DNA from: Agathobacter sp.
GTDB taxonomy: Bacteria; Bacillota; Clostridia; Lachnospirales; Lachnospiraceae
Assembly: GCA_017409825.1 (NCBI GenBank)
Contig: JAFQRZ010000003.1
Coordinates: forward strand, 62,001 to 126,000
DNA length: 64,000 nt
Direction of reading: 5' to 3'
The first letter of the stretch is position 1, and each line of letters opens with the position of its first letter. This document shows, in pieces, positions 37,793 to 56,122 of this stretch. The translations under genes and the position numbers were made by a program. The notes beneath the pieces were generated by a model. That model was not told where the DNA came from, made no database searches, and was given only the letters and a program-made list of their open reading frames with translations.

Positions 37793-38701
37793 ATGGACAA
37801 TACCATGGTGACAACCCATTTGGATGCCTTAGAGGCAGAAGCAATATATATTATGAGAGAAGTAGCAGCGGAATGTGAAAAACCTGTTATGTTATATTCG
37901 ATTGGAAAGGATAGTTCTGTGATGCTGCATCTTGCCTTAAAAGCATTCTATCCGGAGAAACCACCATTTCCCTTTATGCATATTGATACAACATGGAAAT
38001 TCCACGAGATGATAGAATTTCGTGACCGTATCGCAAAAGAAAAAGGAATCGAAATGTTGGTATATACCAATGAAGAAGGTGTGGAGCAGGGAATCAATCC
38101 GTTTGATCATGGTTCTGCATATACTGATATTATGAAGACACAAGCACTTAAGCAGGCGCTGGACAAGTATGGTTTTACCGCGGCGTTTGGTGGTGGTCGC
38201 CGTGATGAGGAAAAATCCCGTGCGAAGGAAAGAATTTTTTCGTTCCGCAATGGGGAGCATGCTTGGGACCCCAAAAATCAGAGACCAGAGCTTTGGAAGC
38301 GATATAATACACAGATTCACAAAGGGGAAAGTATACGAGTGTTTCCGTTATCCAATTGGACGGAAAAAGACATTTGGCAATATATTGAGCGAGAAAAAAT
38401 AGATATTGTACCATTGTATTTTGCGAAGGAAAGACCAGTGGTATATCGTGATGGAAATATTATTATGGTAGATGATGAACGTATGCGTATTTTACCAGGA
38501 GAGGAAATTGTACATAAAAGCGTACGATTTCGCACCCTTGGATGTTATCCGTTAACTGGTGGAGTTGAATCTACAGCAACTACTTTAGAAGAAATTGTAG
38601 AGGAGACATTAGGAGCAGTAAATTCAGAACGCACCAGTCGAGTTATCGACCATGAGGCAGTAGGCAGTATGGAAAGAAGAAAACGAGAGGGGTATTTCTA
38701 G
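37793..38701 (+). CDS. cysD: Sulfate adenylyltransferase subunit 2 CysD
   Basis: A 302-residue PAPS-reductase-fold protein with the [21 protein letters not shown]-loop (about 37-56, ATP-binding), [15 protein letters not shown] (about 133-147) and a C-terminal RRKREGYF. With CysN it makes adenosine 5'-phosphosulfate from sulfate and ATP. Directly followed by cysNC (one base gap). GGAGG lies 8 bases before the ATG. No cysH, cysI or cysJ is nearby, so the product is more likely used for sulfation than for sulfide formation. Confidence 0.93.
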
Positions 38702-38702
38702 G

Positions 38703-40532
38703 ATGAACGGATTATTAAAGTTTATTACGTGTGGAAGTGTAGATGACGGAAAATCCACCTTAATCGGTCATATGCTTTATGATGCCAAGCTCTTGTTTAC
38801 AGATCAGGAAAAAGCCTTGGAGTTGGATAGTAAAGTCGGTAGTCGTGAAGGGATGATAGATTATTCCCTTTTACTGGACGGCTTGATGGCAGAACGTGAG
38901 CAAGGAATTACAATTGATGTTGCATATCGTTATTTTACGACAGAACACCGCAGCTTTATCGTAGCAGATACACCAGGTCATGAAGAATATACCCGCAATA
39001 TGGCGGTAGGTGCTTCGTTTGCAGATTTGGCTGTTATCTTGATTGATGCTTCACAAGGTATTTTGTTACAGACGAAACGTCATGCAAGAATCTGTGCGTT
39101 GATGGGAATCCGCTATTTTGTATTTGCTGTAAACAAGATGGATTTGATTCATTATGAGGAGTTGCAGTTTCGAAAAATCGAAAAAGAGATTAAAAAGTTA
39201 GCCATTGATTTGGATTTGCAGAATGTAGAAGTAATACCAGTTTCCGCTACTGAAGGGGATAATGTCACTCTCAAATCACCAAATATGCCTTGGTATACAA
39301 AGGCTTCATTATTAGAATATCTTGAAAATATTAATGTGGAAGAGAACGAACCAGAAAGAGGTTTCGTAATGCCTGTACAAAGAGTATGTCGCCCAAACCA
39401 TATGTTTCGTGGTTTTCAAGGAGAAATTGCATCTGGAGCTGTTTCTGTAGGTGACGTGATTACCGTTTTACCGAGTCGTGAGACGGCAGAAGTGCAGAAA
39501 ATTCTTTATACAGACAAGTCTGTGCAAGATGCACATAAAGGGCAACCAGTTACGATTCAGTTGAATCGTGAAATCGATGTCTCTAGAGGCTCAGTATTGG
39601 TAAAGAATAGCACACTTATTGTCAGCAATATGTTCACTGTATCGCTTCTATGGATGGATGATAGCGAATTGATTCAAGGGAAAAACTTTTTGTTGAAAGT
39701 AGGAACTAAGACGATTCCTGCGACTGTAATGTCCATCAAATACAAAGTAGATGTACATTCTGGCGAGCACCTTGCGGTAAAGAAACTGGCAAAAAATGAG
39801 ATTGCAGTTTGTGATATCGCTTTGGCAGACCAGGTTGTATATGATACTTTCCAAAAAAATAAAGAGATGGGCAATTTTGTTCTCATTGACCGTGTAACAA
39901 ATATGACATCTGCATGTGGCGTGATTGAGCATTCGTTGAGACGTTCCGAGAATCTTACTTGGCAGAAATTAGACATTACACGTGAAGTACGTGCTCAGAA
40001 GCTAGGACAGAAACCGGTTACCATTTGGTTTACAGGACTTTCTGGTTCTGGCAAGTCAACCCTTGCAAATGAATTAGAAAAAGTACTTACACTTCAGGGT
40101 AAGCACACTATGCTTTTAGATGGAGATAACATTCGTATGGGACTTAATCAGGATTTAGGTTTTGATGAAAAAGGTCGTATTGAAAATATCCGTCGTATTG
40201 CAGAGGTAGCGAAGCTTATGAATGATGCGGGACTTATAGTGTTGACTGCATTTATTTCCCCTTATGAGAGTGATAGAGAAAAGGCAAGAGAAATCATTGG
40301 AACAGAAAACTTCATGGAGGTATATGTATGTACTCCGCTTGAAGTGTGCGAGAAGCGAGATGTTAAAGGGTTGTATAAGAAAGCGAGGGATGGTAAAATA
40401 CCAAACTTTACAGGAGTTAGTAGTCCATACGAAGTGCCTCGGAATCCGAGTCTTGTAGTAGATACAAGTGAGGTATCTATAGAGCAGGCGGTAGAGGCTG
40501 TTATGCATAAACTTGACGAATTTATGGTATAA
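38703..40532 (+). CDS. cysNC: Bifunctional CysN-CysC: sulfate adenylyltransferase GTPase subunit fused to APS kinase
   Basis: The 609-residue protein has a CysN GTPase in the first about 415 residues: GSVDDGKSTLIGHMLYD (P-loop, about 10-26), DTPGHEEY (about 87-94), NKMD (about 141). A C-terminal APS kinase follows: WFTGLSGSGKSTLANELE (about 441-458), DGDNIRMGLNQDLGF, then GLYKKARDGKIPNFTGVSSP. The fused kinase makes PAPS, the universal sulfuryl donor. Two sulfotransferase-like genes lie 3-5 kb downstream on the same strand, so this operon seems built for glycan sulfation. Both catalytic halves look intact. Confidence 0.94.
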   Translation: MNGLLKFITCGSVDDGKSTLIGHMLYDAKLLFTDQEKALELDSKVGSREGMIDYSLLLDGLMAEREQGITIDVAYRYFTTEHRSFIVADTPGHEEYTRNMAVGASFADLAVILIDASQGILLQTKRHARICALMGIRYFVFAVNKMDLIHYEELQFRKIEKEIKKLAIDLDLQNVEVIPVSATEGDNVTLKSPNMPWYTKASLLEYLENINVEENEPERGFVMPVQRVCRPNHMFRGFQGEIASGAVSVGDVITVLPSRETAEVQKILYTDKSVQDAHKGQPVTIQLNREIDVSRGSVLVKNSTLIVSNMFTVSLLWMDDSELIQGKNFLLKVGTKTIPATVMSIKYKVDVHSGEHLAVKKLAKNEIAVCDIALADQVVYDTFQKNKEMGNFVLIDRVTNMTSACGVIEHSLRRSENLTWQKLDITREVRAQKLGQKPVTIWFTGLSGSGKSTLANELEKVLTLQGKHTMLLDGDNIRMGLNQDLGFDEKGRIENIRRIAEVAKLMNDAGLIVLTAFISPYESDREKAREIIGTENFMEVYVCTPLEVCEKRDVKGLYKKARDGKIPNFTGVSSPYEVPRNPSLVVDTSEVSIEQAVEAVMHKLDEFMV

Positions 40533-40607
40533 ATAGCAGATGTGCAAGAATTGTGAAGATGGGAATTGCTTTTCGTGGAAAAGAAGCTGTGGTGAGGAAA
40601 AACGGAA

Positions 40608-41741
40608 ATGTATTATGCAAAAGACTTTATAGATAAACTGCAAAAAGAAGAAACTCTTGTGATATATGGGGCCAGAATTGTTGCAAAAGAAGTGGCGACT
40701 TGCTTAATGGGAGCACCATATCATATGGATATCTCTGCGTTCATGGTTAGTACTTTAGAAGGAAATCCAAAGGAGCTTTGTGGACTTCCTGTAGTAGATA
40801 TATCCTCATGTGAGCAGAAATATAAGGATTCCTGTATCATAGTAGCAGTATTGGAACGGTATCAAGACGAGATAAAGGCGACTCTAGAAGAAAAAAGATT
40901 TCATAATGTAGTATATCTTACCTTTGAAAGCGACTTGTGGAGTGAAGTGCGTGGAAATTATTTCAAGCATATGATAGAGCAATGCGGAAAATCGTTTTTG
41001 ACGTTGGAAGAGGAGTTGGAAAAAATACAGGTAGATACTTCGATAGATTCGAAAGAAGAAGTGCATGTCTACTGTGCGAAATGTATCGTAGACCGAGTGC
41101 TTAAAACAGATGTATTTCAATATGATTGGGAGCTTCCAATTCAAGTAGGAGCAGCACTGACAGAGAAAAGAATTGCAGATATTATAGATAATCATGGAGA
41201 AAATATATCTGAAAAAAATAAAACCCACTGTGAGTTAACGGCTCTTTACTGGATATGGAAAAATGACAAAGCAAAATACGCTGGACTTTGTCATTACAGA
41301 AGACATTTTGCAATGGATAGAGAGATGCTAGATAAACTAGCAATATCCGACATTGATGTAGTTGTGACCATACCAATTTTGAATTTTCCGAATGTGCAGG
41401 CGATGTATGAGAATGACCATTGTCAGGAAGATTGGGAAATTATGATGCAGGCAATTCAAAATCTATATCCGGACTATGAAAAGACTGCAAAGCAAGTAGC
41501 AAATGATGTCTTTTATTATGCTTATAATATGTTCATTGCTCGCAAAGAAGTATTAGATGATTATTGCGAGTGGCTGTTTTCGATTTTGGATTATTGTGAA
41601 ATTCATTGCCAGCGGAAAGAAAATAGTTATCAAAATCGATTTATAGGATTTCTTTCAGAGCGATTGCTTACGATTTACTTATTGCACAATGTAGAAAAGT
41701 TAAAAATTGTACATGGAAAGAAGAAGTTTGTTTTGGAATAG
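40608..41741 (+). CDS. DUF4422 glycan transferase with N-terminal Rossmann-like module
   Basis: The 377-residue protein has an N-terminal GxG-type module (ETLVIYGARIVAKEVATCL, about 16-34, to about 110). A DUF4422 domain follows: IQVGAALTEKRI, GENISEKNKTHCELTALYWI (about 205-224), GLCHYRRHFA, then NMFIARKEVLDDYCEWLF near 305-322. DUF4422 is found in capsule and LPS clusters and is regarded as a glycosyltransferase domain; the sugar is unknown. A closely related architecture recurs at 55025. The gene follows cysNC after 75 bases and lies 2 bases from the next frame. Confidence 0.78.
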   Translation: MYYAKDFIDKLQKEETLVIYGARIVAKEVATCLMGAPYHMDISAFMVSTLEGNPKELCGLPVVDISSCEQKYKDSCIIVAVLERYQDEIKATLEEKRFHNVVYLTFESDLWSEVRGNYFKHMIEQCGKSFLTLEEELEKIQVDTSIDSKEEVHVYCAKCIVDRVLKTDVFQYDWELPIQVGAALTEKRIADIIDNHGENISEKNKTHCELTALYWIWKNDKAKYAGLCHYRRHFAMDREMLDKLAISDIDVVVTIPILNFPNVQAMYENDHCQEDWEIMMQAIQNLYPDYEKTAKQVANDVFYYAYNMFIARKEVLDDYCEWLFSILDYCEIHCQRKENSYQNRFIGFLSERLLTIYLLHNVEKLKIVHGKKKFVLE

Positions 41742-41767
41742 AGATGCATTCTAAAGGAGAAGGGAAA

Positions 41768-42976
41768 TTGAGAGAGGCACTTTTATACGCAAGCACATTT
41801 ATCATAGAAGAAGACCTTATGTGGTTCGTACCAGTACGATATAACTATCTGTGCTGCTATAATCTGCAGACAGAGGAGGTTGTGAAGAAATACCGTTTGC
41901 CAGAGGGGAACCTATATCCTCGTATGTATGATAATATCTTGAGTTATGAGGGGAAGTTGTATTTAATTCCATTTAATGGTAGTAACGTGCTTGTATTTGA
42001 TAAGGGAAAAGAGGTATTTGAGAGAATATCGATGGCACCATATGATACCATAAAGTACAGATTTTGTGCTGCTACGATTTATCAAGATACCTTATATATG
42101 TTTTCGGAGCAGGTCGCAGCTGAAATAGAGAATCCATATATCGTTGTGCGAGTGAATTTATCTTCAAAAGAAATTACACAGATAGTAGAGTTAGATGTGG
42201 AAGTCGTCTCAGCAAGAAAGCCATACTATGAAGTATTTGCGAGACAGTCTTTTGTTATAGAAAGACAGCTGTATATTTTATTGCAGAGAACGAATCAAGT
42301 GCTAGGATATGATCTCGAAAGAAATATTACTCAGGTTTATGTGGTGGGTAGTAGTGAAAATAGGTATACTGCAATGTGCGTGGATAAAGATAAGTTTTAT
42401 TTTATTGACCAAGAAGGTGATGTAACAGTATGGGACAAGGCGAAGAATATCAATTCGAAATATAAAAATACGATATCAGGATATCAGGTAGAAAAGAAAG
42501 ATATATTTGCCGCATTTTCTTCAAGTTTTAAATATGAAGACATGATATATTTTGTTCCAAGATATGCGAATAAGGTATTAGCATTTAATAGTGAGAATAT
42601 TATAGAAGCTCCTTTTAGTGAGGTGCTCCAATCGTGTAAAAAAAGGTTCGAGACTAACTGGGTGGGTAAATTTTTATCGTGTGTACAAAGAAATCATATC
42701 CTATATTTATCAGATGGATATAGTTATAAGTTTCATATGGTAAATTTAGTCACTAATAGGTACATTGGTAGAGAGATAGCTACTATATTCAAAAAAGATG
42801 AATTAGACGAAATGTATCTTGAAGCTTTAATTGAAAAAAGAGAATGGTATTATGAAGATTCTTCAGAGTATTTTAATCTAGAATTCTTTTTAAAAAATTT
42901 GAGGGCAGAAAAAGATGTGAAAGAATTAGACAAAAATGCCCCAATTGGAAAAGAGATTTTGCAGAGAATAATTTAG
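41768..42976 (+). CDS. Predicted beta-propeller-like protein of unknown function in glycan cluster
   Basis: I do not recognise this protein by function. Its roughly 402 residues consist of repeated beta-strand units, for example YNLQTEEVVKKYRLPEGN, LSYEGKLYLIPFNGSNVLVF and YEDMIYFVPRYANKVLAFNS. Each has the pattern of a hydrophobic strand, a turn and an aromatic strand, which suggests a beta-propeller. No signal peptide is visible. I prefer the TTG at 41768, with AAAGGAG 6 bases upstream, over the ATG at 41744, which has no ribosome site. Position between a DUF4422 gene and a sulfotransferase gene suggests a glycan-related role. Confidence 0.55.
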   Translation: MREALLYASTFIIEEDLMWFVPVRYNYLCCYNLQTEEVVKKYRLPEGNLYPRMYDNILSYEGKLYLIPFNGSNVLVFDKGKEVFERISMAPYDTIKYRFCAATIYQDTLYMFSEQVAAEIENPYIVVRVNLSSKEITQIVELDVEVVSARKPYYEVFARQSFVIERQLYILLQRTNQVLGYDLERNITQVYVVGSSENRYTAMCVDKDKFYFIDQEGDVTVWDKAKNINSKYKNTISGYQVEKKDIFAAFSSSFKYEDMIYFVPRYANKVLAFNSENIIEAPFSEVLQSCKKRFETNWVGKFLSCVQRNHILYLSDGYSYKFHMVNLVTNRYIGREIATIFKKDELDEMYLEALIEKREWYYEDSSEYFNLEFFLKNLRAEKDVKELDKNAPIGKEILQRII

Positions 42977-43046
42977 AGGATATTTAACGTTGGAGGGAGA
43001 AATTGTTTACTGCATTAAAAAGAAATGAAAGAAGAGGAAGATTACG

Positions 43047-44204
43047 GTGGAATATCAAAGAAAGTTGGCGGTTGATGAACTAATCCATTTGGGTGCCATG
43101 AGAAAATGTGCGATATTTGGTGCAGGTCAAGTTGGAGAACACTTATTTCTGGCTTTGAGGCATAAAAAAATTATAGTGGATGCATGGGTGGATTCAAATC
43201 ATAAAGAAAAGGGAGTTGTATATGGATATAAAATAGGTAACCCTAGTATTTTGAATAATAATTACGATTGTATATTTATAGCGGTAGAATCAGAAATCTT
43301 GAAGAATGAGATTAAGGACACACTTGAGAAAATGAATATTGATTCTGAGCGGATTATATGGTCGGAGGATTTGAGACGCAGAAGTAATGCGAATATTATT
43401 CTAAAGGGATTTGTAGCGTCACCCTTTGTAAGAAAGATAGTTTGGGATGCAATCGTACATCGCCGTTTAGGAACGGATGTTGGTTACAAAGGGTTTGTTA
43501 GACAACTAGAAAAAATTATATTGTGGGATGAAAAATTAGATACAATTTCTTGGTTTACAGATGATCAAAAAAGAATTGCTTATTTTAGAAATGCGAAGGT
43601 AGCATGTAGCTCCCTAATTGCAGCAACAAAAAAATGGAGCGGTAACGCGGAGGCAGATATTCATAAAGATATGGAGAGGGAAGAGATTCGAGGGGAGCTT
43701 CCAGAGTCGGAAACATATTATAAATTTACATTTGTGAGAAATCCATTTTCTAGGTTATATTCATGTTATATGAATAAGGTATATAATAAAGAAAAAACAA
43801 TGTTCTCACATTACTGCCTAGGTTATTTAGGGAAAGATGAAGGATTCAAAATGTTTGTTAAAAAAGTATGTTCTATACCAGATGAATGGGCAGATAGACA
43901 TTTTTCTTCACAGTATTTTCAAGTATATTTAGATGGAAGGTGTAGATGCGATTATGTTGGAAAGATAGAAAATCTTTCGACAGAATGGAGAGCGATTAAA
44001 GAGGAATATAATTTGATGGATTTGCCTAAAATGAACACATCCAATACTAGTAAATGGAAAGATAGTTATGATTTAGAAATGGTAGAACTTGTATATAAAC
44101 GTTATCAAAAAGATTTTGAGTGTTTTGATTATATGAAAGAATATGAAGAGCTTAGGAAATATATAAAGGAAAAAATTAGAAAGGAGAGCATTGAAGATTT
44201 ATGA
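43047..44204 (+). CDS. Carbohydrate sulfotransferase (Sulfotransfer_2-like) with N-terminal Rossmann-like module
   Basis: The 385-residue protein has an N-terminal module with KCAIFGAGQVGEHLF (about 20-34). The sulfotransferase domain starts near 170: RIAYFRNAKVACSSLI (about 179-194) matches the 5'-phosphosulfate loop (PKVACTSL in the HNK-1/chondroitin sulfotransferase family). FTFVRNPFSRLYSCYMNKVY (about 231-250) matches the 3'-phosphate binding motif (FVRdPfeRLvSaY). It should transfer sulfate from PAPS to a sugar hydroxyl. The PAPS-making cysD-cysNC pair lies about 3 kb upstream. It overlaps the next gene by 4 bases. Base composition is AT-richer than in the flagellar cluster. Confidence 0.78.
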   Translation: MEYQRKLAVDELIHLGAMRKCAIFGAGQVGEHLFLALRHKKIIVDAWVDSNHKEKGVVYGYKIGNPSILNNNYDCIFIAVESEILKNEIKDTLEKMNIDSERIIWSEDLRRRSNANIILKGFVASPFVRKIVWDAIVHRRLGTDVGYKGFVRQLEKIILWDEKLDTISWFTDDQKRIAYFRNAKVACSSLIAATKKWSGNAEADIHKDMEREEIRGELPESETYYKFTFVRNPFSRLYSCYMNKVYNKEKTMFSHYCLGYLGKDEGFKMFVKKVCSIPDEWADRHFSSQYFQVYLDGRCRCDYVGKIENLSTEWRAIKEEYNLMDLPKMNTSNTSKWKDSYDLEMVELVYKRYQKDFECFDYMKEYEELRKYIKEKIRKESIEDL

Positions 44205-45400
44205 ATAGGCTAAACGAAATAAGAGATTTTGAATTAATTCAGAATGTAGATATATTATTTGAGAAACCTGCTATTATTATAGGTGCAGGACATCTAGGAA
44301 CCAAAATATGTGCATTACTACAAGGAGCTTTAATAAAGATAGAGTATATTTATGACAAGAAATTAATGGAAGATAGCTATATGGGGATTCCAACTATTTC
44401 GTTTGAGGGGATCAAGAAAGTAACAGATTGTAAAGACTATATATTGATTATAGGTACAGAGACCCATCGTGAAGAAATGCTAACAAGGTTAGAAGAACAT
44501 AATATACGAGGTTATATTTGTACATGGCATGGTGTACAGACTGCAATTGAGCTAAATATAGAGAATGAAAAATTTTTAGAAGAATTTAGGATTGAGTTCA
44601 TTCAGCGGAAAAAAGTTGCTACAAAATTTTTTTCCTTATCAGATTACTTTGCAAATGTTAGAAAAATATATGAATATCCACAAGCTGTATGGGTATGGCA
44701 ACCTAAAAAAGTAGGATCCAAAACAGTGGTAAAAACGCTTGAAAACAGTGGGATTAATACAGTTCATTTGCATTCAGTAATGAAAAAAACGGAATTGCAA
44801 GAAAAAGTTTCTAATGTGGCTGATGAACATATAAATTATTTAAAAACATATTATAGTAAAGGCGACCATACTTTAAAAATAATCACACTTGTTAGAGAAC
44901 CAATTGCAAGAGCATTATCGGGGTATATGAATGCTTTTAGTCAGTTAGCATTACTTCGAGATGTAGATAAGGATCTTGTGAAGGGGGCGGAAGCTCATAT
45001 CATTGAAAGTTTAGAAAACGATTATGAGTTCCAGTGGTTCAATGAAGAAATAAGAGAACTCACGAATATTGATATTTATAGATATCCATTTGACAAAGAA
45101 CTTGGTTATGCATGGATAAAAGAAAATAAAATTGAAATTTTAATACTAAAAACGGAGACTTTAAATCAAAATGCACGGATAATAGGTGAATTTGTTGGTT
45201 GTCCTAATATAGAAATTAGTAACGAAAATGTGGGTGCTGAAAAGCACTATGTGTATCTTTATGATGAAATCAAAAAGAGAATAAAATTACCACGAAAGGT
45301 TCTTAAAGAACAGTATGAAAGTTCGGAATTTACACATTTTTATTCGGAGAAAGAAATACAAGCTTTTTGGCAAAAATGGGAAGGCAGACTGACGGATTAG
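44201..45400 (+). CDS. Putative second sulfotransferase with N-terminal Rossmann-like module
   Basis: The 399-residue protein has an N-terminal module (PAIIIGAGHLGTKICALLQG, about 24-43) and a C-terminal domain with WQPKKVGSKTVVKTLENSG (about 167-185), VHLHSV, then ITLVREPIARALSGYMNAFS (about 228-247). The VGS(K/S)T and VREP-R-LSGY motifs follow the PAPS-binding pattern of sulfotransferases. The overall look fits the capsular polysaccharide synthesis proteins of the NKWYS type. Its start overlaps the previous sulfotransferase by 4 bases. Sulfate transfer is inferred from motifs and neighbours. Confidence 0.62.
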   Translation: MNRLNEIRDFELIQNVDILFEKPAIIIGAGHLGTKICALLQGALIKIEYIYDKKLMEDSYMGIPTISFEGIKKVTDCKDYILIIGTETHREEMLTRLEEHNIRGYICTWHGVQTAIELNIENEKFLEEFRIEFIQRKKVATKFFSLSDYFANVRKIYEYPQAVWVWQPKKVGSKTVVKTLENSGINTVHLHSVMKKTELQEKVSNVADEHINYLKTYYSKGDHTLKIITLVREPIARALSGYMNAFSQLALLRDVDKDLVKGAEAHIIESLENDYEFQWFNEEIRELTNIDIYRYPFDKELGYAWIKENKIEILILKTETLNQNARIIGEFVGCPNIEISNENVGAEKHYVYLYDEIKKRIKLPRKVLKEQYESSEFTHFYSEKEIQAFWQKWEGRLTD

Positions 45401-45412
45401 AGTGGAGGAAAA

Positions 45413-46726
45413 ATGAATAAAATACCACAAATATCAATAATCGTTCCAATATATAATGTAGAGCTATATTTAGAAGAGTGTTTAAAGAGTGTATTGCGTC
45501 AATCATTTCAAAATTATGAGGTGATATGCATTGATGATGGTTCTACAGATGGATCTTATGAAGTGTTAAAAAAATATGCACATATAGATACAAGGATACG
45601 AGTTTTTCGGCAGGAAAATAGGGGGTTGAGTGCTACAAGAAATAGAGGAATTAGGTTGGCGTGTGGAGAATATATTTGTTTTTTAGATGGTGATGATATG
45701 TTAACTGCAGACGCATTGGAAACGATGTGGAATGCCGTTCAGCAAGGATGGCCAGAGGTACTTACTTATGAAACTTCTACACTTTTATACGAGAACGAAA
45801 ACTTAAAAAAATATTCAAATAAGGATGTTTATTATCGCATATCCAATGATTATACAGGAATAAAACAAGGAAGAATATTTTTGGTCGAGATGATGGAAAA
45901 TGATGATTTTGTGGAATCTGCTTGCCTTTTATTGATAAAAAGGGAGTGGTTAATGGATTCAAAACTCTTTTTTGTAGATGGAATGTTATTTGAAGATGCA
46001 GGTTTTTCTATCGAAGTATATTTTCAATGCCAAAGGATGAAGCATATTAAGTCGCACCTCTATATTTATCGCGTGCGAGATAGTTCAATTATGACACAAG
46101 AATTTACAAGTTTACATCAGGAATCTAGGATATGGCAATTTAGTGAATGTTTAAGAATGATATATACTTATGCTCAAAGTGAAAGAGAACGTAAAGCGAT
46201 AGCGAAGTATGCACAAAAGTGTATTGACAGTATATTTTTCATCGACAATCATTTATGCAAAGATGAAAAGAAAAAAATCCGAGAATTAAAAACACCATGT
46301 GATTTGCTCTTTAAAAGTATGAGGTTAGCAGGTGTTGAAACAGAATTTAATCAAGAGCTTGTTTTAAAAGGTATGCAGCAAGAAGTAAAAGATGTAGAAC
46401 AAATCATCATTTATGGTGCAGGTGTAATAGGTAATAAATTAAAAGTCTTTTTGGAGTACAGCCATTTGGAAAATCGGATATTAGGATTTGCGGTAACTCA
46501 TAAAATAGAGAGACAGTATATAGATAATTATGTAGTTCAATCTATTGCGGAGTACGAAGTAAAAGATGAAACTTTGGTAGTTATTGCGACAAAACCGGAG
46601 TATCATAGGGAAATGGCAGATGAAGCAATAAAAAATGGATTTAAAAAGATAATCGTAATAGGTTATGAGATTGAAGCGGCAATGGATAAAAAAATACTAG
46701 AGTGGGGCGAGGTGTATGAAGGCTAA
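45413..46726 (+). CDS. GT2 glycosyltransferase with C-terminal Rossmann-like module
   Basis: The 437-residue protein has a GT-A domain typical of family 2: PQISIIVPIYNVELYLEECL (about 5-24), VICIDDGSTDGSYEVL, NRGLSATRNRGIRLA, and CFLDGDDMLT with the DxD motif (about 91-93). From about residue 330 it carries the same GxG module found at the N-terminus of its neighbours (IIIYGAGVIGNKLKVFLEYS). GGAGGAAA precedes the ATG. It overlaps the next gene by 11 bases. The acceptor is unknown. Confidence 0.83.
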   Translation: MNKIPQISIIVPIYNVELYLEECLKSVLRQSFQNYEVICIDDGSTDGSYEVLKKYAHIDTRIRVFRQENRGLSATRNRGIRLACGEYICFLDGDDMLTADALETMWNAVQQGWPEVLTYETSTLLYENENLKKYSNKDVYYRISNDYTGIKQGRIFLVEMMENDDFVESACLLLIKREWLMDSKLFFVDGMLFEDAGFSIEVYFQCQRMKHIKSHLYIYRVRDSSIMTQEFTSLHQESRIWQFSECLRMIYTYAQSERERKAIAKYAQKCIDSIFFIDNHLCKDEKKKIRELKTPCDLLFKSMRLAGVETEFNQELVLKGMQQEVKDVEQIIIYGAGVIGNKLKVFLEYSHLENRILGFAVTHKIERQYIDNYVVQSIAEYEVKDETLVVIATKPEYHREMADEAIKNGFKKIIVIGYEIEAAMDKKILEWGEVYEG

Positions 46727-47921
46727 GAAAAAAGTAATTTTATATGGTGCGGGGGATTATGCAAAAAGTTTTTTGGATAAATATATAAATTATTTAATAG
46801 AATATTTTGAAATAATCGCTATAGTAGATAGAAATTATGAACATTGTGAATCACTAGGTGGATATATTGTAGAGCACCCTGATGTGATTAGGTCGAAAAT
46901 GTTTGACAATGTTTGTATTTTAAGTATGTATTGCATAGACGAAATAAGAGAAAAATTAATCACAGAATATGATGTAGAAGAGGACAGAGTTGAGTTAACC
47001 GATTTTCTGTTGGCTCCAGTTGTTGAGAAAAGATTCGGCATTAGGAAGAAGGGGGTAAACTGGAACGATAAACAAATTCTATGGGATTATATGATTCCAA
47101 ATAATAAGTATCCGAAGGGTAACGTTTTACTATGGGAATCTTATAATATGTTAAAGGAAAAATACGGAGATTATTTAAAAGAGAAGGCTGATGAGGTATT
47201 TGAAGACGAGAGTAAAGGGATTCACAATAAGACAATATGGATTTGCTGGTTGCAAGGAATGGAGAAAGCACCAGATATTGTTAGGGCATGTTATAATTCT
47301 GTTAAGAAGCAGATGTATGATTATGACATTAAATTAGTTACGGAAAAGAATCTTTGTGATTATATTAGTGTTCCAGATGTAATAGAAGAAAAATATAAAA
47401 AGGGCTTGATAGGAAAAGCTCATTATTCGGATTATATTAGATGTGAATTGTTGATAAAATATGGTGGAATATGGATAGATGCTACCGTTCTTTTAACTCA
47501 AAGAATTCCAGATGTGATTTTGAATAGTAAAATATTTATGTTCGATTTAAGTAATGTTAGGGAGTTAAGTCGGAATCAGTCATCTAACTGGTTTATTGTA
47601 TCAGTTCCTCAAAATAAGATATTAGTTTTGGTTAGAGATTTGCTAATAAAGTATTGGGAAGAAAATGACGAAGCAATAAATTATTTTATTATGCATATTT
47701 TTATGAGAATGGTGTTTGAACATAGTAGAGATAGATGGAATAGTATGAAGCATATGGCAGTAAATGCATATTATATGTGTAATTTACTTAATGCATCATT
47801 TGATGCAAAGGAATATGAGTATATTAAGAATATTTCATTTATTCATAAATTGACATATAAAAAGAAAATAGATTATGAAAAAGAAAATTTTTATAATCAT
47901 ATATTAGGGGAGTGGTTATAG
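46716..47921 (+). CDS. Capsular polysaccharide-type glycosyltransferase (GT32-like) with N-terminal Rossmann-like module
   Basis: The 401-residue protein has an N-terminal module (KKVILYGAGDYAKSFLDKYI, about 4-23). The GT part contains TIWICWLQGMEKAPDIVRAC (about 172-191), AHYSDYIRCELLIKYGGIWI (about 229-248) and a D-A-T that follows. The SDYIR..LL..YGG.W.D signature with its acidic pair is that of GT32/OCH1-like and capsular transferases. It is the last gene of the cluster before a strong bidirectional terminator. The coding region is AT-rich, with many ATA and AGA codons. Confidence 0.78.
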   Translation: MKAKKKVILYGAGDYAKSFLDKYINYLIEYFEIIAIVDRNYEHCESLGGYIVEHPDVIRSKMFDNVCILSMYCIDEIREKLITEYDVEEDRVELTDFLLAPVVEKRFGIRKKGVNWNDKQILWDYMIPNNKYPKGNVLLWESYNMLKEKYGDYLKEKADEVFEDESKGIHNKTIWICWLQGMEKAPDIVRACYNSVKKQMYDYDIKLVTEKNLCDYISVPDVIEEKYKKGLIGKAHYSDYIRCELLIKYGGIWIDATVLLTQRIPDVILNSKIFMFDLSNVRELSRNQSSNWFIVSVPQNKILVLVRDLLIKYWEENDEAINYFIMHIFMRMVFEHSRDRWNSMKHMAVNAYYMCNLLNASFDAKEYEYIKNISFIHKLTYKKKIDYEKENFYNHILGEWL

Positions 47922-47930
47922 AACAAAAAT

Positions 47931-47968: not shown

Positions 47969-47979
47969 AATAGCGTTAA

Positions 47980-49089
47980 TTAATTAAGATCAAAAGTAAT
48001 TTTTAATACGAAAGTTGTTCTAGCAGTATCATTAAAGATTACTTGAACATATCTTACAGCGCCATCTTCTGCACCACCAAAGAGAGTACTCATTGGAAGA
48101 GTAAGTTTGCCATTAGCAGTATCTACAGTACATTTTGTTAAGTGATTAGTAGTTGCAAAGCTTGTTTGTGATGAACCAGTTTTAATTGATGTAATACCAG
48201 TTGCAGCTGTAGAATCTAAACCTAACTCAAAGTCTACTACAAGGTCTGTTTTGTCAGAGGTGTATTCGAGTGTTGAGATGAGTGGAGTTGCAGAAGGTTC
48301 AGCTTCTTCAACTTCAGCACCTTCCATTTCTACTGTCCAAACAACACTAATAGTTGGGTTGCCAGTGTTGTCGTAATCAGACCAATCTGCATTTGAGTTA
48401 CATGCACCAGTAACACAGAATGAGTATGTTGCAGGCGTTGCTTCAACATCTTCATCAATTACATAATCATATGTTTCTGTAGTTGCGTTATAAACTACCT
48501 TATAAGCACTGAATGAAGCTAATTCAGCTTCTACGTTTCCAGTATACTTATTATCACTCTTTGTAGCGATTGCTGATTCAGTAGCGATTTCGTCATCTTC
48601 AACAGTTGCTACAGCAAGGTAGATTTCAAGAGCATCATCTGTTGCAGCCCAGTTAGCATCTTCAGAAAGAGCGATAGATGCGTTTGTAGCAGGAACAGTT
48701 ACGGTTGCGTTTAATGTGATATTTACATCTACAGAACTCTTGTTAGTAACTGTTAAAGCCTGGCTCTTTACGTCGTATGTGTCTTCTGTTACTTTGAAGT
48801 ACATGCTTCCATATGTAGCGAACTCAACAGAACCATCTGTAGAGTATGCGTTACCAGATGTAATTTCGATTAATCCTTCTGGGTCTAAGATAAAGTCAAA
48901 GACTTTGTCTGTAGCAGAAACAGTTGGAGCTACTACGTTGAATACTTCTGTGTTAACAGAACCTTCGAAATCTGCTTCACCGCCAAGTGTTCCTTCTTTT
49001 GATGTTTCAGCACCGAAAAATACAGTAGTAGATCCCAGTACTAATGTTGCTGCCATTACGCAAGCAATAAGTTTTTTGAATTGTTTCAT
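47980..49089 (-). CDS. Secreted beta-rich surface protein of unknown family
   Basis: The 369-residue protein has a clear signal peptide (MKQFKKLIACVMAATLVLGS, cleavage near FGA at about 25-28). The mature chain is acidic, rich in Thr, Ser, Ala and Val, with strand-like segments and only two Cys residues (FCVTGAC, about 218-224), which could form a disulfide. I see no LPxTG, SLH or membrane anchor. It lies 45 bases downstream of the membrane-anchored small protein at 49135, so the two are probably co-transcribed. Strong GGAGG before the start suggests good expression. Role unknown; a secreted matrix or pilus-like subunit is possible but unproven. Confidence 0.7.
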   Translation of the reverse strand: MKQFKKLIACVMAATLVLGSTTVFFGAETSKEGTLGGEADFEGSVNTEVFNVVAPTVSATDKVFDFILDPEGLIEITSGNAYSTDGSVEFATYGSMYFKVTEDTYDVKSQALTVTNKSSVDVNITLNATVTVPATNASIALSEDANWAATDDALEIYLAVATVEDDEIATESAIATKSDNKYTGNVEAELASFSAYKVVYNATTETYDYVIDEDVEATPATYSFCVTGACNSNADWSDYDNTGNPTISVVWTVEMEGAEVEEAEPSATPLISTLEYTSDKTDLVVDFELGLDSTAATGITSIKTGSSQTSFATTNHLTKCTVDTANGKLTLPMSTLFGGAEDGAVRYVQVIFNDTARTTFVLKITFDLN

Positions 49090-49134
49090 AATACTTTTCC
49101 TCCTTGAAAATATATTAATTATATACGCATTGAG

Positions 49135-49662
49135 CTAGTTTTGTACGATAATTGTGAGAGTAAAGCTTACTGTGCTTAGTGTATTTTGATCTTCATCCAC
49201 CAAATGATATTCAATTATGCAATCATAGGTGCCTGCTTCCAAGTCTTTATCCAGAGTAATGGCCTCTAGATGACTGCCGATTGGTAATACAGGGGATGCA
49301 TAGATGCGTTCTTTGGTGTCAGAAAGTAAAATGTCAAAATACACATCGTGGGTGTTAGCCACTACGTTTTCCACGTAAGCATTTTTAGAAGCGGATTTAC
49401 CGTCTGCAAATACCCAGTTGGAAGACATTTTAGTCTCGTAAGAACCTACTGGAACAAAATCATCTTCTGCCATATCTTTGAGAACCTCTTCCAGGTTATC
49501 TTTGGTGATGACAACGTTTCTTTTGTCTTCAGGTTCATTCTCTTGACCTAAAAATACTACTGCACCTACCAATACTACTGCACAGCAGATACCGACTAAT
49601 GGTATGATTCCTCCTCCTTTCTTTTTTGTAGCGTTGCCGCTTCGAATTGATTTACCACTCAC
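49135..49662 (-). CDS. Membrane-anchored protein with domain shared by the O-antigen-ligase-like protein
   Basis: The 175-residue protein has a basic N-terminus (residues 1-15), one membrane segment (about 17-37), a charged linker and an extracellular domain (about 75-175). That domain contains SNWVFADGKSASKNAYVEN, VLPIGSHLEAITLDKDLEAG and a YHLVDED element. It aligns by eye along its length with the last about 100 residues of the protein encoded at 35394-37688. The start is GTG at 49662, with CGGAGG 9 bases upstream. It precedes the secreted protein gene on the same strand. Function unknown. Confidence 0.68.
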   Translation of the reverse strand: MSGKSIRSGNATKKKGGGIIPLVGICCAVVLVGAVVFLGQENEPEDKRNVVITKDNLEEVLKDMAEDDFVPVGSYETKMSSNWVFADGKSASKNAYVENVVANTHDVYFDILLSDTKERIYASPVLPIGSHLEAITLDKDLEAGTYDCIIEYHLVDEDQNTLSTVSFTLTIIVQN

Positions 49663-49871: not shown

Positions 49872-49897
49872 GTAAATGCAGAAATGGAGGTAGTACA

Positions 49898-52089: not shown

Positions 52090-52936
52090 TATAAGAGCAG
52101 AAGGAAGAGTAATTGTAAAAACGTGGATTTCACTTTCTATTATGTTAGCGGTAAGTTGTGCGTGTGCAATATTGTTGAGTGGACGATTGGGTGTAATGGT
52201 TGAGAAATTATCGCAGAGCCCAGTAGAAGTATTGGCATTACTTGGAATTTATAATATAGAACAAAAGCATATTAGTTTAATGATTTTTTATATGGTAGCA
52301 ATCCTTCTAAATATTGTTGCGATATCAAAAGCTGCTGGAGCAGCAGTTGAGGCGGTAAAGGAAGATGAGGAAAATGGTTCTATTCGTTTTTTCATGCATC
52401 AGACATATAGTTGTGACCAGATTTGGATTGGAAAAATGGGGGTTGCGATTGGTTCTGCGTTGATGCAATGGGTACTTTATGTAATTTCTATGATTTTAAT
52501 GGTTGGTTTGATTTGCTATCGTTATGATTTATTATTTGCGGTCGAGGTACAAAATGTCGTTATGATTGGGATTCGAGGTGGACTGTTTGTTGTATTAGCA
52601 GTTGGAATTTGCCTGTTGTATTCTTTGAAAGAAGATTTGGAAATGACATATGAATACTTCGTTTCAAGTGTATTCTGGGGCTGTTTTTTAGTTGGGAATT
52701 TGTACAAGGTTTTTGCAATGCTTTCCTGCTATACTGCAAGTGCAAGAATGGAAATGCAGCTACGAAAGTTGGAAGGAATTTTTGAGAATTTGAGAATTTT
52801 GTTTCCATTCACAGTGTTAAATGTTTTTCATGAAGGGAAGATGCCATTGCCTAATTTTACATATATTATATATGCGTTAATTACGGTTGTAATATTGTTG
52901 GTATACGGCTATGCATATCGAAGGGATAGAAAATGA
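52076..52936 (+). CDS. ABC-2-type membrane permease subunit
   Basis: The 286-residue protein has six predicted membrane segments (about 17-35, 68-88, 118-145, 159-182, 198-220, 258-278). A cytoplasmic loop (VKEDEENGSIRFFMHQTYS, about 94-112) has the E-x-G-T-R/L-like coupling signature of ABC-2 permeases. It overlaps the degenerate ATPase gene and, by 4 bases, the chromate-family transporter gene, so the genes are translationally coupled. Substrate unknown. Confidence 0.68.
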   Translation: MIRNNIRAEGRVIVKTWISLSIMLAVSCACAILLSGRLGVMVEKLSQSPVEVLALLGIYNIEQKHISLMIFYMVAILLNIVAISKAAGAAVEAVKEDEENGSIRFFMHQTYSCDQIWIGKMGVAIGSALMQWVLYVISMILMVGLICYRYDLLFAVEVQNVVMIGIRGGLFVVLAVGICLLYSLKEDLEMTYEYFVSSVFWGCFLVGNLYKVFAMLSCYTASARMEMQLRKLEGIFENLRILFPFTVLNVFHEGKMPLPNFTYIIYALITVVILLVYGYAYRRDRK

Positions 52937-54192
52937 AGGGTGTAAGTTTGTTTTGGAATATGTTGAAAATAGGCTGCATTGGTTTCGGTGGAGGAAGTGC
53001 ATTGATTCCCGTTATGCATAAAGTTTTTGTGGTAGAACAAGAGGCGGTTGGAGAAACAGAGTTTGAAGAAGCTGTTGTTGTTGCTAGTATTACACCTGGA
53101 GCTTTGACAATTAAGCTTGCAGGAGAAATCGGTCGACAGATTGCAGGTTGGAAAGGGATGCTGCTTAGTGCATCTGCGATGGCATTGCCAGGCGTTTTTT
53201 TGATGATTGTTTTATTGTCACTTACGACGAATTTAAGTCCAGCATTAGTGGGACAGATGGAGTTTCTGTCTATTGGAGTGATGGCTTATATTATTTGCAT
53301 GTTGACAGATTATGTGTTGAAAACCGTTGTGATGAGACCAAAGGGAATGCAAGGACATCTGTCTATTGGTATAATTATTTTGGTGTTTCTGCTTTCTTGT
53401 GGCAATAATATATGTCGATTGATGAGTGTGCAGGTAGTGGATGTGTTCCATTTAAGTAATTTAGAAATATTCCTTTTGACGTTTGTATTAATTTTCATAA
53501 AATGTTGTTTTTCGAAATCGAGGATGAGTCTTTCACATAATGCAGAGTTAAAATGGTCTGATACGATGAAGGAAGTGCTTGTTGCGTTGCTTGTTGTTTT
53601 ATTGGCGTTGCTTCCATCATTGTTTGTGACAAAGGAGGCTTTGCTGTATGCAGGAAATGGGATACTGTCTTCACTGATTTCTTTTGGTGGAGGTGATGCA
53701 TATCTTACAGTTGCAGATGGTTTGTTTGTCGGTACAGGATTGGTTGCAGAGGATATGTTTTACGGAGCAATTATTCCATTGGCAAATTTGCTTCCGGGCT
53801 CTATTTTATGTAAAGTTTTAAGTGGAATCGGATATGTCATGGGGGGATATGCGGTTGCACTTTTAGGATTTGCGTGCAGCTTTACTACATCTTGTGGAAT
53901 TGTTTCTGTAGTAGGAAGTTTGTATCGGGGTATGGGTGAGCTACCTGTTTTTCAGATTGTAAAGCAATGGATTCGTCCAGTTGTGTCAGGCCTTATGCTG
54001 AATGTCATATTGTCATTGGTTTGTCAGACGCATGAAATAGGAGAGCCCGTCTCTTTTCATGGGATGTATGTAGGGATTATGGGGTTGATTTATCTAGTAA
54101 ATTTATTTTTACATTATAAAAAGGTAAGTAACATAAAAATGGTAATCATATCAGTTGCAATGGCACTCATACTCTGTAATATGGTAGGATAG
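52933..54192 (+). CDS. chrA: Chromate transporter (CHR) family protein, two-domain form
   Basis: The 419-residue membrane protein has two homologous CHR halves. The first contains GCIGFGGGSALIPVMHKVFV (about 14-33), then ASITPGALTIKLAGEIG (about 51-67). The second contains ISFGGGDAYLTVADGLFVG (about 251-269), then IIPLANLLPGSILCKVLSGI. About ten membrane helices. CHR proteins move oxyanions, with chromate efflux the best known, and sulfate as chemical relative. Here it sits 4 bases before cysQ and in the same region as cysD-cysNC, so sulfate handling is a fair guess, stated as inference. Overlaps the permease gene. Confidence 0.85.
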   Translation: MKGVSLFWNMLKIGCIGFGGGSALIPVMHKVFVVEQEAVGETEFEEAVVVASITPGALTIKLAGEIGRQIAGWKGMLLSASAMALPGVFLMIVLLSLTTNLSPALVGQMEFLSIGVMAYIICMLTDYVLKTVVMRPKGMQGHLSIGIIILVFLLSCGNNICRLMSVQVVDVFHLSNLEIFLLTFVLIFIKCCFSKSRMSLSHNAELKWSDTMKEVLVALLVVLLALLPSLFVTKEALLYAGNGILSSLISFGGGDAYLTVADGLFVGTGLVAEDMFYGAIIPLANLLPGSILCKVLSGIGYVMGGYAVALLGFACSFTTSCGIVSVVGSLYRGMGELPVFQIVKQWIRPVVSGLMLNVILSLVCQTHEIGEPVSFHGMYVGIMGLIYLVNLFLHYKKVSNIKMVIISVAMALILCNMVG

Positions 54193-54196
54193 ATAT

Positions 54197-55015
54197 ATGT
54201 GGACAAAGGAACTAGAAATCGCAAAACTTGCAGCGATTTATGCGGGTGAAGCGATTATGAAAATATATAATACGGCAGATTTTCAGGTGGAGTATAAGAA
54301 AGATGACTCTCCGCTAACGGCAGCAGATAAAGCATCAAATGCAATTATTGTGAAATTGCTATCAGAAGCATTTCCAGAGTATGCGATTTTATCTGAGGAA
54401 GAAAAAGATAATTTATCACGTTTGAAAAAAGATTTTTGTTTTGTGGTAGATCCGTTGGATGGAACTAAAGAGTTTATCAAACGAAACGGACAGTTTACAG
54501 TGAATATAGCACTTTCTCATAAACATGAAGCTGTCGTGGGGGTTATTTATGTACCGGTAACAAGAGAGTTGTATTGGGCGAGCCAAGGAGATGGTGCATA
54601 CCGTGTAAGGGTGGATGTGGAACGAGATTTATGGTCAAGCACCATCATGGAGGGCAGCGGTGCTGAGAAGCTTCAAGTATCAAACAATATAGATACTTCA
54701 GCGCTTCGTGTGGTTATGAGTAGTTCACACGGATGTGCCCAGATGGATGATTTACTGGAGAAATATCATTTCACAAATTATGTAAAAAGAGGAAGTTCTC
54801 TAAAAGGATGTATGGTTGCGAGTGGTGAGGCAGATATTTATTATCGCTTTAATCCTACAATGGAGTGGGATACGGCTGCAATGCAGTGCATTGTAGAAGA
54901 GGCGGGAGGAATTTTCCGGCAGATGGACGGTTCTCTAATGCGATATAATCGAGAAAACAGTTTGAATGAGAAGGGATTTTATATAATAAATCAAATAGAG
55001 AATTTGTTAATTTGA
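54197..55015 (+). CDS. cysQ: 3'(2'),5'-bisphosphate nucleotidase CysQ
   Basis: The 272-residue inositol monophosphatase-fold protein has metal-binding motifs: SEEEKDN (about 62-68), VDPLDGTKEFI (about 84-94) and EWDTAAMQCIVEEAGG (about 223-238). The signature DPLDGTKEFI marks the CysQ/BPNT1 subgroup. It hydrolyses 3'-phosphoadenosine 5'-phosphate (PAP), the by-product of sulfotransferases, to AMP and phosphate. Presence here closes the PAPS cycle with cysD-cysNC and the two sulfotransferase-like genes. Confidence 0.9.
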   Translation: MWTKELEIAKLAAIYAGEAIMKIYNTADFQVEYKKDDSPLTAADKASNAIIVKLLSEAFPEYAILSEEEKDNLSRLKKDFCFVVDPLDGTKEFIKRNGQFTVNIALSHKHEAVVGVIYVPVTRELYWASQGDGAYRVRVDVERDLWSSTIMEGSGAEKLQVSNNIDTSALRVVMSSSHGCAQMDDLLEKYHFTNYVKRGSSLKGCMVASGEADIYYRFNPTMEWDTAAMQCIVEEAGGIFRQMDGSLMRYNRENSLNEKGFYIINQIENLLI

Positions 55016-55024
55016 GGTTAAATA

Positions 55025-56122
55025 ATGAAAAAAGAGGGCATCTATATATTTGGAGCTCATTCCCGTGGAAAAACAGTGGCACACTATTTGACATATCTGT
55101 ATCCAGAGATTTTTGTTGAAGCATATTTGGTGGATAATGATGAAATTAACGAGAAAAGTGTGGATGGAATACCTGTAATTCGTGTGAATGAGGATACAAA
55201 ATTATATAAAAAATATCCGGTCTATATTGGGACGAGAGGTGTTTTTCATTCAGCCATAATAAAACATTTAGAGCAGATTGGGATGGAGGATATTCGACCG
55301 GTTACAGTGGAACTTGATTTGTGGCTTCGAAATGAATATTTAAAACTGCACTACGAAAGGTTAGGGCGCGCTTTTATAAAAATCAATGATTTGCAAGTCC
55401 TAGTTGGTGAGGAGGGTTTGCAAGCAAAGAGCGATACAGTTGGTATATATGTGGCAAAATCAATACAGGATAAAATACTTGCAGAATCATATATACTACA
55501 GTCTTATGAAAAAGAAATTCAAGTAGGTGCCGCCCTTACAAAGTCTAGGCTTTCCAATGATATGGTTACTGATGATACGGGGGAAAATATTTCGACTAGA
55601 AATAAGCAATTCTGCGAATTGACGGCGTTGTATTGGATTTGGAAAAATGCCAAAGAGGATATTGTAGGATTAGTGCATTATCGCAGACATTTTATGATGC
55701 CTGGAAATTGGTTGTTAAGAATGAAAGACAATGATGTAGACGCTATCTTACCCGTTCCGCTTTATGTAGTGCCCAATTTAGAGGAGAATTATAGAAGTCG
55801 ACATGATGAGAGTGATTTAGATTATATGTTCGCATATATGAAAAAATATTATTCTGAGGATTATGAAGAGTTAAAGGAATTTTGGCAGACTGGTTTATAT
55901 TCGCCATGTAACATGCTGGTTGCTCGAAAAGATGTTTTGGGTGATTTGTGCGAATGGTTATTTCCAATTTTGTTTGAAGTGGCACAGCATGGTGGACAGA
56001 AAGAAGATTTATACTTGAATCGCTATCCAGGATTTCTTTCCGAAAGATTGATTTCGTATTTCTTTGAGAAAAATAGAAATAAGTATAAAGTCGTTTTTGC
56101 AGATAAGAATTTTTTGCAATAG
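55025..56122 (+). CDS. DUF4422 glycan transferase with N-terminal Rossmann-like module (second copy of this architecture)
   Basis: The 365-residue protein has the same layout as the gene at 40608. The N-terminal module starts GIYIFGAHSRGKTVAHYL (about 4-21). The DUF4422 domain has IQVGAALTKSRL (about 160-171), then GENISTRNKQFCELTALYWI, GLVHYRRHFM, NMLVARKDVLGDLCEWLF and a final LNRYPGFLSERLISYFFEKN. The similarity to the other copy is obvious by eye but far from identity, so the two are old paralogues. It follows cysQ after 9 bases, which ties the sulfation genes to this transferase type. Confidence 0.8.
   Translation: MKKEGIYIFGAHSRGKTVAHYLTYLYPEIFVEAYLVDNDEINEKSVDGIPVIRVNEDTKLYKKYPVYIGTRGVFHSAIIKHLEQIGMEDIRPVTVELDLWLRNEYLKLHYERLGRAFIKINDLQVLVGEEGLQAKSDTVGIYVAKSIQDKILAESYILQSYEKEIQVGAALTKSRLSNDMVTDDTGENISTRNKQFCELTALYWIWKNAKEDIVGLVHYRRHFMMPGNWLLRMKDNDVDAILPVPLYVVPNLEENYRSRHDESDLDYMFAYMKKYYSEDYEELKEFWQTGLYSPCNMLVARKDVLGDLCEWLFPILFEVAQHGGQKEDLYLNRYPGFLSERLISYFFEKNRNKYKVVFADKNFLQ

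Follow-up and report, generated by a model that had tools for sequence, protein, structure and literature searches.

The window examined here is a 64,000-nucleotide stretch of an Agathobacter sp. genome of the family Lachnospiraceae (G000:C11:62001-126000; genome of 2.80 Mb in 36 contigs, 96.9% complete), and our subject is a set of its genes, at 37793-56122, for the synthesis and use of 3'-phosphoadenosine-5'-phosphosulfate (PAPS). We read this cassette as a predicted cytosolic PAPS-dependent sulfation system within a flagellin glycosylation island and, from sequence comparison, give that reading a probability of about 0.6. Its parts differ in strength: sulfation by PAPS appears well supported by sequence and comparative evidence, the product is very probably a sulfated glycan, and the acceptor, on a modest balance of the evidence, would be flagellin.

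PAPS synthesis without a visible assimilatory outlet

A first-pass annotation of this DNA had named five genes for a PAPS-dependent cassette within 37793-56122, and all five are upheld there by curated models or Pfam. On the plus strand these are cysD, for the small subunit of sulfate adenylyltransferase (37793-38701; NF009214, 516 bits against a cut-off of 413); cysNC, for the GTPase subunit fused to adenosine-5'-phosphosulfate (APS) kinase (38703-40532; NF004035, 848 bits against 715; PF01583, 229 bits); ST1, for a Sulfotransfer_2 sulfotransferase (43047-44204; PF03567, 58.5 bits against 22); ST2, for a candidate sulfotransferase of the NKWYS family (44201-45400; PF10364, 78.7 bits against 25.1); and cysQ, for a phosphatase of 3'-phosphoadenosine-5'-phosphate (PAP) (54197-55015; TIGR01331, 238 bits against 228.8). 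CysQ falls short of a second CysQ model, NF008182 (183 bits against 379). CysD and CysNC thus both exceed curated cut-offs, with the APS kinase fused, as expected of a CysD-CysNC PAPS synthesis complex.

The remark that no sulfite-reduction genes lie beside the cassette can be extended to the whole genome. The sulfite/nitrite reductase family (PF01077) has no match in the window's own genome; the same model matches 36 of 62 genomes searched and 11 of 14 controls. A PF01507 search of the genome returned CysD itself as its sole match and no PAPS/APS reductase. An AprA query from a relative found only a 193-residue stretch at 28% identity and 38.6 bits, and the AprA genes of other relatives score 734-945 bits with that query. 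A reductive gene could sit in the missing ~3% of the genome. Assimilatory sulfate reduction takes both a PAPS/APS reductase and a sulfite reductase, and since neither was detected in the genome, PAPS appears to be made here without a visible assimilatory outlet.

Fused CysNC genes across the family

Comparison across the family points the same way. In a set of 200 genomes, one per genus, fused CysNC exceeds the cut-off in 23, the window's genome included; G029 (contig end cuts the gene), G021 (full length, under the cut-off), and G097 (a 155-residue fragment) were left out of the fused set. Within the window's genus, it exceeds the cut-off in 10 of 34 genomes searched. We compared the neighborhoods of the 23 fused loci (the window and 22 others) with those of 19 of the 21 unfused CysN loci (G147 and G020 not included). 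Of the fused loci 16/23, and of the unfused 1/19, have a candidate PAPS-type sulfotransferase no more than 9 kb from cysN (Fisher p 2e-5); the queries, chosen by eye, came for the most part from fused loci, a choice that favors detection there. AprA lies within 9 kb of cysN at 0/23 fused versus 16/19 unfused loci (Fisher p 6e-9), its query coming from an unfused locus, so that unlike types could escape on either side. The neighbors of the unfused genes had also been inspected by eye before this scoring by query, and the Fisher tests assume independent loci, an assumption that relatives violate. In G091, the one unfused exception, the APS kinase is separate and a Sulfotransfer_1 gene is present. 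Together these contrasts suggest that, in this family, fusion of CysNC is as a rule a sign of sulfation, not of assimilation.

Several protein types fill the sulfotransferase slot beside fused genes. Sulfotransfer_1/3 proteins occur in G060 (three copies), G106, G198, and G028, as assigned by Pfam on one G060 copy, G106, and G198 and by similarity for the others. Sulfotransfer_2 proteins occur in the window and G184, and NKWYS proteins in the window, G111, and G022. A type with a GTPKTGT-like loop occurs in G121, G135, G188, G143, G140, G152, G057, and G195; Arg-x7-Ser is present in 10 of its 11 members, and none of those scanned, one per genome, has a Pfam match over cut-off. These proteins of ~385-420 aa, which have sulfotransferase-like loops and lie beside fused cysNC in eight panel genomes, are those at L041:643-1800, L042:9608-10765, L051:102-1325, L054:9092-10243, L055:17005-18183, L058:244-1395, L039:2883-4151, and L067:13509-14660, and their profile resembles Sulfotransfer_1/3 types (E 2e-6, probability 90%). 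Arylsulfotransferase (ASST) genes, for enzymes usually thought to be PAPS independent, were seen near cysDNC or beside a cysD-cysN-cysC run at L032:16746-18671, L043:13620-15599, and L089:11597-13633.

NKWYS proteins as candidate PAPS-dependent sulfotransferases

ST1 has the features of a sulfotransferase: a Sulfotransfer_2 profile and the PAPS-binding motifs KVACSS and RNPFSRLYS (R-x7-S). The motifs quoted earlier for both proteins (VACSS and FVRNPFSRL in ST1; VGSK and VREP-R-LSGY in ST2) are present in the translations. PF03567 and PF10364 each have one match in the genome, and a PF13469 search found no further sulfotransferase there (PF00685 was not searched in this genome). A scan of viral contigs found no relative of ST1. 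Against the PDB by sequence, ST1 gave a lone match to FlhA (E 0.013, residues 46-104, in its N-terminal part), which we took to be chance.

ST2 belongs to PF10364, NKWYS, which Pfam calls 'Putative capsular polysaccharide synthesis protein' in a description without a catalytic role. We propose, with high confidence for a claim drawn from sequence, that NKWYS is a PAPS sulfotransferase family, because of its conserved Lys and Arg-x7-Ser, its weak in-register similarity to Sulfotransfer_2 proteins, and its PAPS-synthesis neighbors.

A lysine in a first loop (the 5'-phosphosulfate loop) and Arg-x7-Ser in a second (the 3'-phosphate loop) are the PAPS-binding signatures of sulfotransferases. In an alignment of 54 sequences (53 of 93 listed NKWYS frames and the window's own), K170 and R232 of ST2 are invariant, S240 is found in 90% or more, and H191 is nearly invariant. 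An hhalign comparison of NKWYS with three Sulfotransfer_2-type proteins gave E 1.2e-4 at a probability of only 55% and put the PAPS motifs in register, KVGS with KVACSS and VREPIAR..S with VRNPFSR..S. Against the PDB, the NKWYS profile reached heparan sulfate 3-O-sulfotransferases at E 0.011, a poorer score than that of the N-terminal domain with Rex. A stand-alone NKWYS protein from Grimontia also matches Sulfotransfer_1 (PF00685) at 2e-4, just below the cut-off, and of the four NKWYS proteins with an extra N-terminal domain at L149 and L150, two match Sulfotransfer_3 below the cut-off. These extended proteins (620-700 aa; L149:6908-10983, L150:7219-11218) form tandem pairs, with flagellin glycan genes on one side and cysDNC on the other. 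We do not claim that NKWYS and the 'HIG.PKTGT' proteins form one family, as a profile comparison gave nothing in register.

The distribution of NKWYS bears on the same point. Within the 62-genome panel, NKWYS exceeds its cut-off in 5/23 genomes with fused CysNC versus 0/39 others (p 0.005), and G083 has a broken, sub-threshold trace. It is rare in the window's genus, where 3 of 60 genomes, the window's included, have a full-length copy and one more matches the N-terminal domain. A scan with an eight-sequence NKWYS alignment, one genome per species, confirmed 86 loci, of which we kept 80, from several phyla by record title; some share a genome or genus and are not independent. At 23 of the 80, cysD, cysN, or an APS kinase gene lies within 10 kb, and 10 of those 23 are outside Lachnospiraceae-type records (Bacillus, Salinibacillus, Vulcanibacillus, Thalassobacillus, Alkalicoccus, four Grimontia, and Enterovibrio).

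The flagellin neighborhood

The three flagellin genes (26937-28397, 28666-30120, and 30342-31847, all plus strand, with PF00669 matches) are the last genes of a flagellar block, flgM/flgN-flgK-flgL-fliW-flaG-fliD-fliS by eye, that starts near 16822. They are followed on the plus strand by a family 2 glycosyltransferase (GT2) with a long C-terminal region, called GT2-TPR here after a tetratricopeptide repeat label given by eye (31912-33990; PF00535, 49.8 bits), and by a glycerophosphotransferase-like protein, GPT452 (33983-35341; PF04464, 18.9 bits, under the cut-off of 22.1). Then come a divergent gene on the minus strand for an O-antigen-ligase-like membrane protein (35394-37844; PF04932 Wzy_C, 53.8 bits), the cassette, and genes of CDP-ribitol type. 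The cassette had been described as starting right after the flagellin genes; it is indeed near them, but the divergent gene intervenes and the two do not form a codirectional operon. The listed TTG start of the divergent gene overlaps cysD, and its true start probably lies further in.

Related arrangements recur. In G236, of the same genus, the start of cysD lies ~600 bp past a flagellin gene; then come cysNC, ABC-transporter-like genes, GPT452, NKWYS, a ligase-like gene, epimerase/tarI/tarJ-like genes, another flagellin, and finally a nusG-like gene. In G022, of another genus, the order of a flagellar block, flagellin, GT2-TPR, GPT452, cysQ-NKWYS-cysD-cysNC, and a nusG-like gene is kept over 53.6-108 kb of its contig. 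The flagellar block of both has, by similarity, the order seen in the window. Flagellin, GT2-TPR, GPT452, NKWYS, cysD, and cysNC follow one another within 14-16 kb in L149, L150, and L156. L210 has the order NKWYS, cysQ, cysD, cysNC, flagellin; in G222, cysDNC lies ~5 kb before a small flagellin that is followed by a nusG-like gene; and L171 has a flagellar block, flagellin, GT2s, a tarI-like gene, GPT452, sulfate-type ABC genes (by eye), cysQ, cysD, cysNC, and NKWYS. GT2-TPR-like genes stand beside flagellin in L149, L150, L156, L216, G236, and G022. Of 42 genomes, 14 have a GPT452 homolog; in 7 of them it lies no more than 15 kb from a PF00669 match, and in one of the 7, G083, a weak GPT452 match stands next to an FlgL-type one.

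Counts over genomes agree. PF00669, a model that covers both flagellin and FlgL, has matches in 29/29 Lachnospiraceae-type NKWYS genomes (a first 7 and 22 further ones, with L145, a 4.4-kb contig, left out) versus 20/35 panel genomes without NKWYS (Fisher p 4e-5). Flagellin lies within 30 kb of NKWYS in 12 of the 29 (the window, G236, G022, G222, L149, L150, L156, L210, L171, L164, L161, and L157); the contigs were matched by sequence for L171, L164, L161, and L157 and by length for L149, L156, and L210. By rough estimates from genome size, the chance of meeting cysNC in a 21-kb stretch is ~1% and that of flagellin within 30 kb ~5%. Glycan genes thus lie near flagellin here and do so recurrently across genomes, which is what we understand by a flagellin glycosylation island. 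Among the Gram-positive relatives, the islands of G236:C11 (50-54 kb; L107) and G022:C54 (82-85 kb; L049) also contain, by eye, genes of a type for 3-deoxy-D-manno-octulosonic acid synthesis (KdsA-, KpsF-, and CMP-sugar-synthetase-like).

Glycan genes and proposed mechanism

Several genes of glycosyltransferase type stand among and next to the five cassette genes. On the plus strand are two DUF4422 (PF14393) proteins, which we take to be candidate glycosyltransferases and which are 35% identical to each other (40608-41741, 191 bits; 55025-56122, 167 bits); a GT2 glycosyltransferase (45413-46726; PF00535, 128 bits); a Caps_synth protein, also a candidate glycosyltransferase (46716-47921; PF05704, 241 bits); and a protein without an assigned function, perhaps beta-propeller-like, whose Pfam matches are all sub-threshold (41744-42976). 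On the minus strand at 47980-49662 are genes for a 369-aa protein (47980-49089) and a 175-aa protein (49135-49662), both with a hydrophobic N-terminal stretch by hydropathy and without a Pfam match; they lie between cysNC and cysQ, which are ~14 kb apart, and because they interrupt it we rejected 37793-59992 as a single operon. The 175-aa protein is homologous to the C-terminal domain of the ligase-like protein at 35394-37844 (BLASTP 33% over 163 aa, E 6e-25).

A PglD_N/Rossmann-like accessory domain is common to six of the window's glycan proteins: the two DUF4422 proteins (N-terminal; 3e-9 for the first), ST1 (N-terminal; 6e-8), ST2 and Caps_synth (both N-terminal), and the GT2 of 45413-46726 (C-terminal, residues 325-424). 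Among all reading frames collected it has 201 matches, some loci being counted twice, and 181 of these are near one protein end. It may be a docking domain.

Downstream of the cassette, on the plus strand, a ribulose-phosphate epimerase-like gene (56145-56807, named by eye), a ribitol-5-phosphate cytidylyltransferase/IspD-like gene (58230-58931; NF001183, 118 bits, and TIGR00453, 145 bits, below their cut-offs of 166 and 181), and a zinc alcohol-dehydrogenase-like gene (58928-59992; PF08240) make a supply of CDP-ribitol possible, and ribitol or glycerol phosphate may be a further addition made by the island; a similar epimerase/cytidylyltransferase/dehydrogenase-like trio stands beside flagellin in G236. 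Past the end of the window are nusG, rplK, and rpoB (named by eye).

A ChrA-family transporter (52933-54192, plus strand; PF02417, 120 bits) is a candidate sulfate importer. ChrA homologs lie within 9 kb of cysN at 5/22 other fused and 4/19 unfused loci, the window's own lying further off. Genes for these 'chromate' transporters recur near both sulfation and APS-reduction loci (G121, G140, G082, G028, G130, G185, G071, G091, and G083), a pattern that suggests sulfate as their substrate in this family. CysTWA- or TauABC-like genes, so named by similarity and eye, occur in some relatives.

In the mechanism that we propose, sulfate would enter, perhaps via the ChrA-like transporter, and CysD and CysNC would convert it to PAPS. 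From there on we infer that ST1 and the NKWYS protein ST2 would move sulfate from PAPS onto sugars added by the neighboring GT2, DUF4422, and Caps_synth proteins, with CysQ clearing the by-product PAP. Neither ST1 and ST2 nor the glycosyltransferase-type proteins of 40608-47921 have a transmembrane-like stretch; sulfation would therefore be cytoplasmic, and flagellin awaiting export would be its simplest target. Among 21 scanned genes of 31912-59992, none was recognized as coding for a flippase or initiating sugar-phosphate transferase (the genes at 56145, 56965, and 57511 and the rest of the genome were not searched), which, with the lack of transmembrane-like stretches, suits a cytoplasmic glycosylation of flagellin before export.

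Alternative acceptors and roles

Several observations weigh against this reading, in addition to the choice of sulfotransferase queries noted above. In the window itself, the divergent gene at 35394-37844 separates the flagellin and glycosyltransferase block from cysD. In 17 of the 29 NKWYS genomes, flagellin is more than 30 kb from NKWYS or on another contig: it is ~44 kb away on the same contig in L151, at least 91 kb away in G195, and on a different contig or more than 80 kb away in the others. Eight of the 23 genomes with fused CysNC have no PF00669 match, so the cassette as such has no fixed link with flagella. Seven of the 23 fused loci have no PAPS-type sulfotransferase nearby; of these, G192 and G082 carry an arylsulfotransferase (PF05935), and G159, G103, G130, G168 (where the stretch ended close to cysD), and G109 carry neither. 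ST2 is under every Pfam sulfotransferase cut-off (PF03567, 17.0 bits against 22), and 57 of the 80 NKWYS loci have no counted PAPS-synthesis gene within 10 kb (a 72-bit match in L144 being uncounted). Finally, a protein of the sulfite/nitrite reductase family (NIR_SIR) is encoded somewhere in 14/23 genomes with fused CysNC, as compared with 15/17 other CysN genomes and 7/22 genomes without CysN, the last chosen for completeness.

The best surviving alternative, which we hold to be rather unlikely, is that the sulfated acceptor is a surface polysaccharide or another exported protein and that proximity to flagellin reflects a chromosomal site shared by glycan genes. The 369-aa protein, for example, is a possible acceptor, with the ligase-like protein as its transferase, and here the homology between the C-terminal domain of the ligase-like protein and the 175-aa neighbor of the 369-aa protein counts in favor. 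Both small genes, moreover, recur beside NKWYS in L139, L196, and L206, without flagellin within 10 kb (the 175-aa one alone is found in L143), a further point against our own reading. The cassette lies near flippase-like genes in G184 and G060 (by eye), and in G111, G188, and G195, NKWYS and flagellin are on different contigs or more than 90 kb apart. What holds this alternative below the flagellin reading is that every one of the 29 NKWYS genomes has a PF00669 match, that runs of flagellin, NKWYS, and cysDNC genes recur, and that the 21 genes scanned included no recognizable flippase or initiating transferase. The first-pass annotation had placed sulfate on a surface glycan, perhaps on flagellin. 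Of this, PAPS-dependent sulfation gains from the lack of a detected reductive branch and from the split within the family, and the flagellin link gains from synteny that recurs in relatives; the acceptor itself we can only infer.

It is improbable that PAPS is used on a small molecule (a steroid, phenol, or lipid) instead of a glycan: the arylsulfotransferases beside cysDNC in G192 and G082 indicate that some members of the family may serve other acceptors, but both of the window's sulfotransferases sit in a run of glycosyltransferase-type genes and share its accessory domain. More improbable still is that CysDNC serves assimilatory sulfate reduction beside unrelated sulfotransferase-like genes, for although in other bacteria sulfate assimilation usually starts with CysD and CysN and the NIR_SIR count above lends this some color, AprA is near none of the 23 fused loci and several genes would all have to have been missed in a genome that is 96.9% complete and has yielded no PF01077 match, no AprA, and CysD alone for PF01507.

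Comparison with known systems and implications

PAPS-dependent glycan sulfation is already known; what would be new is its setting and a proposed sulfotransferase family not recognized as such in the sources searched. In rhizobial Nod-factor sulfation, NodP and NodQ (of CysD-CysNC type) act with the sulfotransferase NodH, and the acceptor is a secreted lipo-chitooligosaccharide. The window resembles that system in having a dedicated CysD and fused CysNC that would feed a glycan sulfotransferase outside assimilation and differs in its flagellar linkage, which the rhizobial system, with its secreted acceptor, lacks.

The sulfated N-glycans of Halobacterium salinarum are reported to include those of archaellins (PMC11980604, PMC6591318). 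In common with our prediction, the protein of a swimming filament bears sulfated sugars; the filament there is archaeal and the pathway N-linked, whereas here a bacterial flagellin and, as we propose, a cytosolic assembly would be involved. Type B flagellin of Clostridioides difficile carries a taurine-capped, sulfonated peptidylamido-glycan encoded beside fliC, and among the genes studied there, according to the authors, no glycosulfotransferase is represented (PMC5207245, PMC5207246). As in our prediction, the flagellin glycan of a Gram-positive bacterium has a sulfur-bearing acidic group and genes near flagellin; there, however, the group is a sulfonate (taurine), and here there are a PAPS system and sulfotransferase-type genes. 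Sulfated bacterial polysaccharides, such as the capsular polysaccharide of Cobetia marina (PMC11766843) and cyanobacterial synechan (PMC13125312), whose biosynthesis gene clusters are reported to have been examined or transferred, differ in that they are polysaccharides and not flagellin linked. In the open-access literature searched (titles and starts of abstracts), we found no description of bacterial flagellin sulfation or of Lachnospiraceae sulfotransferases, in keeping with the earlier remark that no sulfated flagellin glycan is known to have been described in Lachnospiraceae, and the word NKWYS was not found.

We advance more tentatively, at somewhat less than even odds, the combined proposal that NKWYS proteins are unrecognized, widespread PAPS-dependent glycan sulfotransferases and that, in flagellated Lachnospiraceae, a recurring island of NKWYS and CysDNC sulfates a flagellin glycan in the cytoplasm. 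These results give the Pfam family NKWYS a testable enzymatic function and carry a warning for annotators, namely, that cysDNC alone should not be read as sulfate assimilation. They also predict that common gut bacteria have sulfated flagella, and the flagellins of such bacteria are major antigens; if this is true, these would be the first flagella of any bacterium with predicted sulfate esters.

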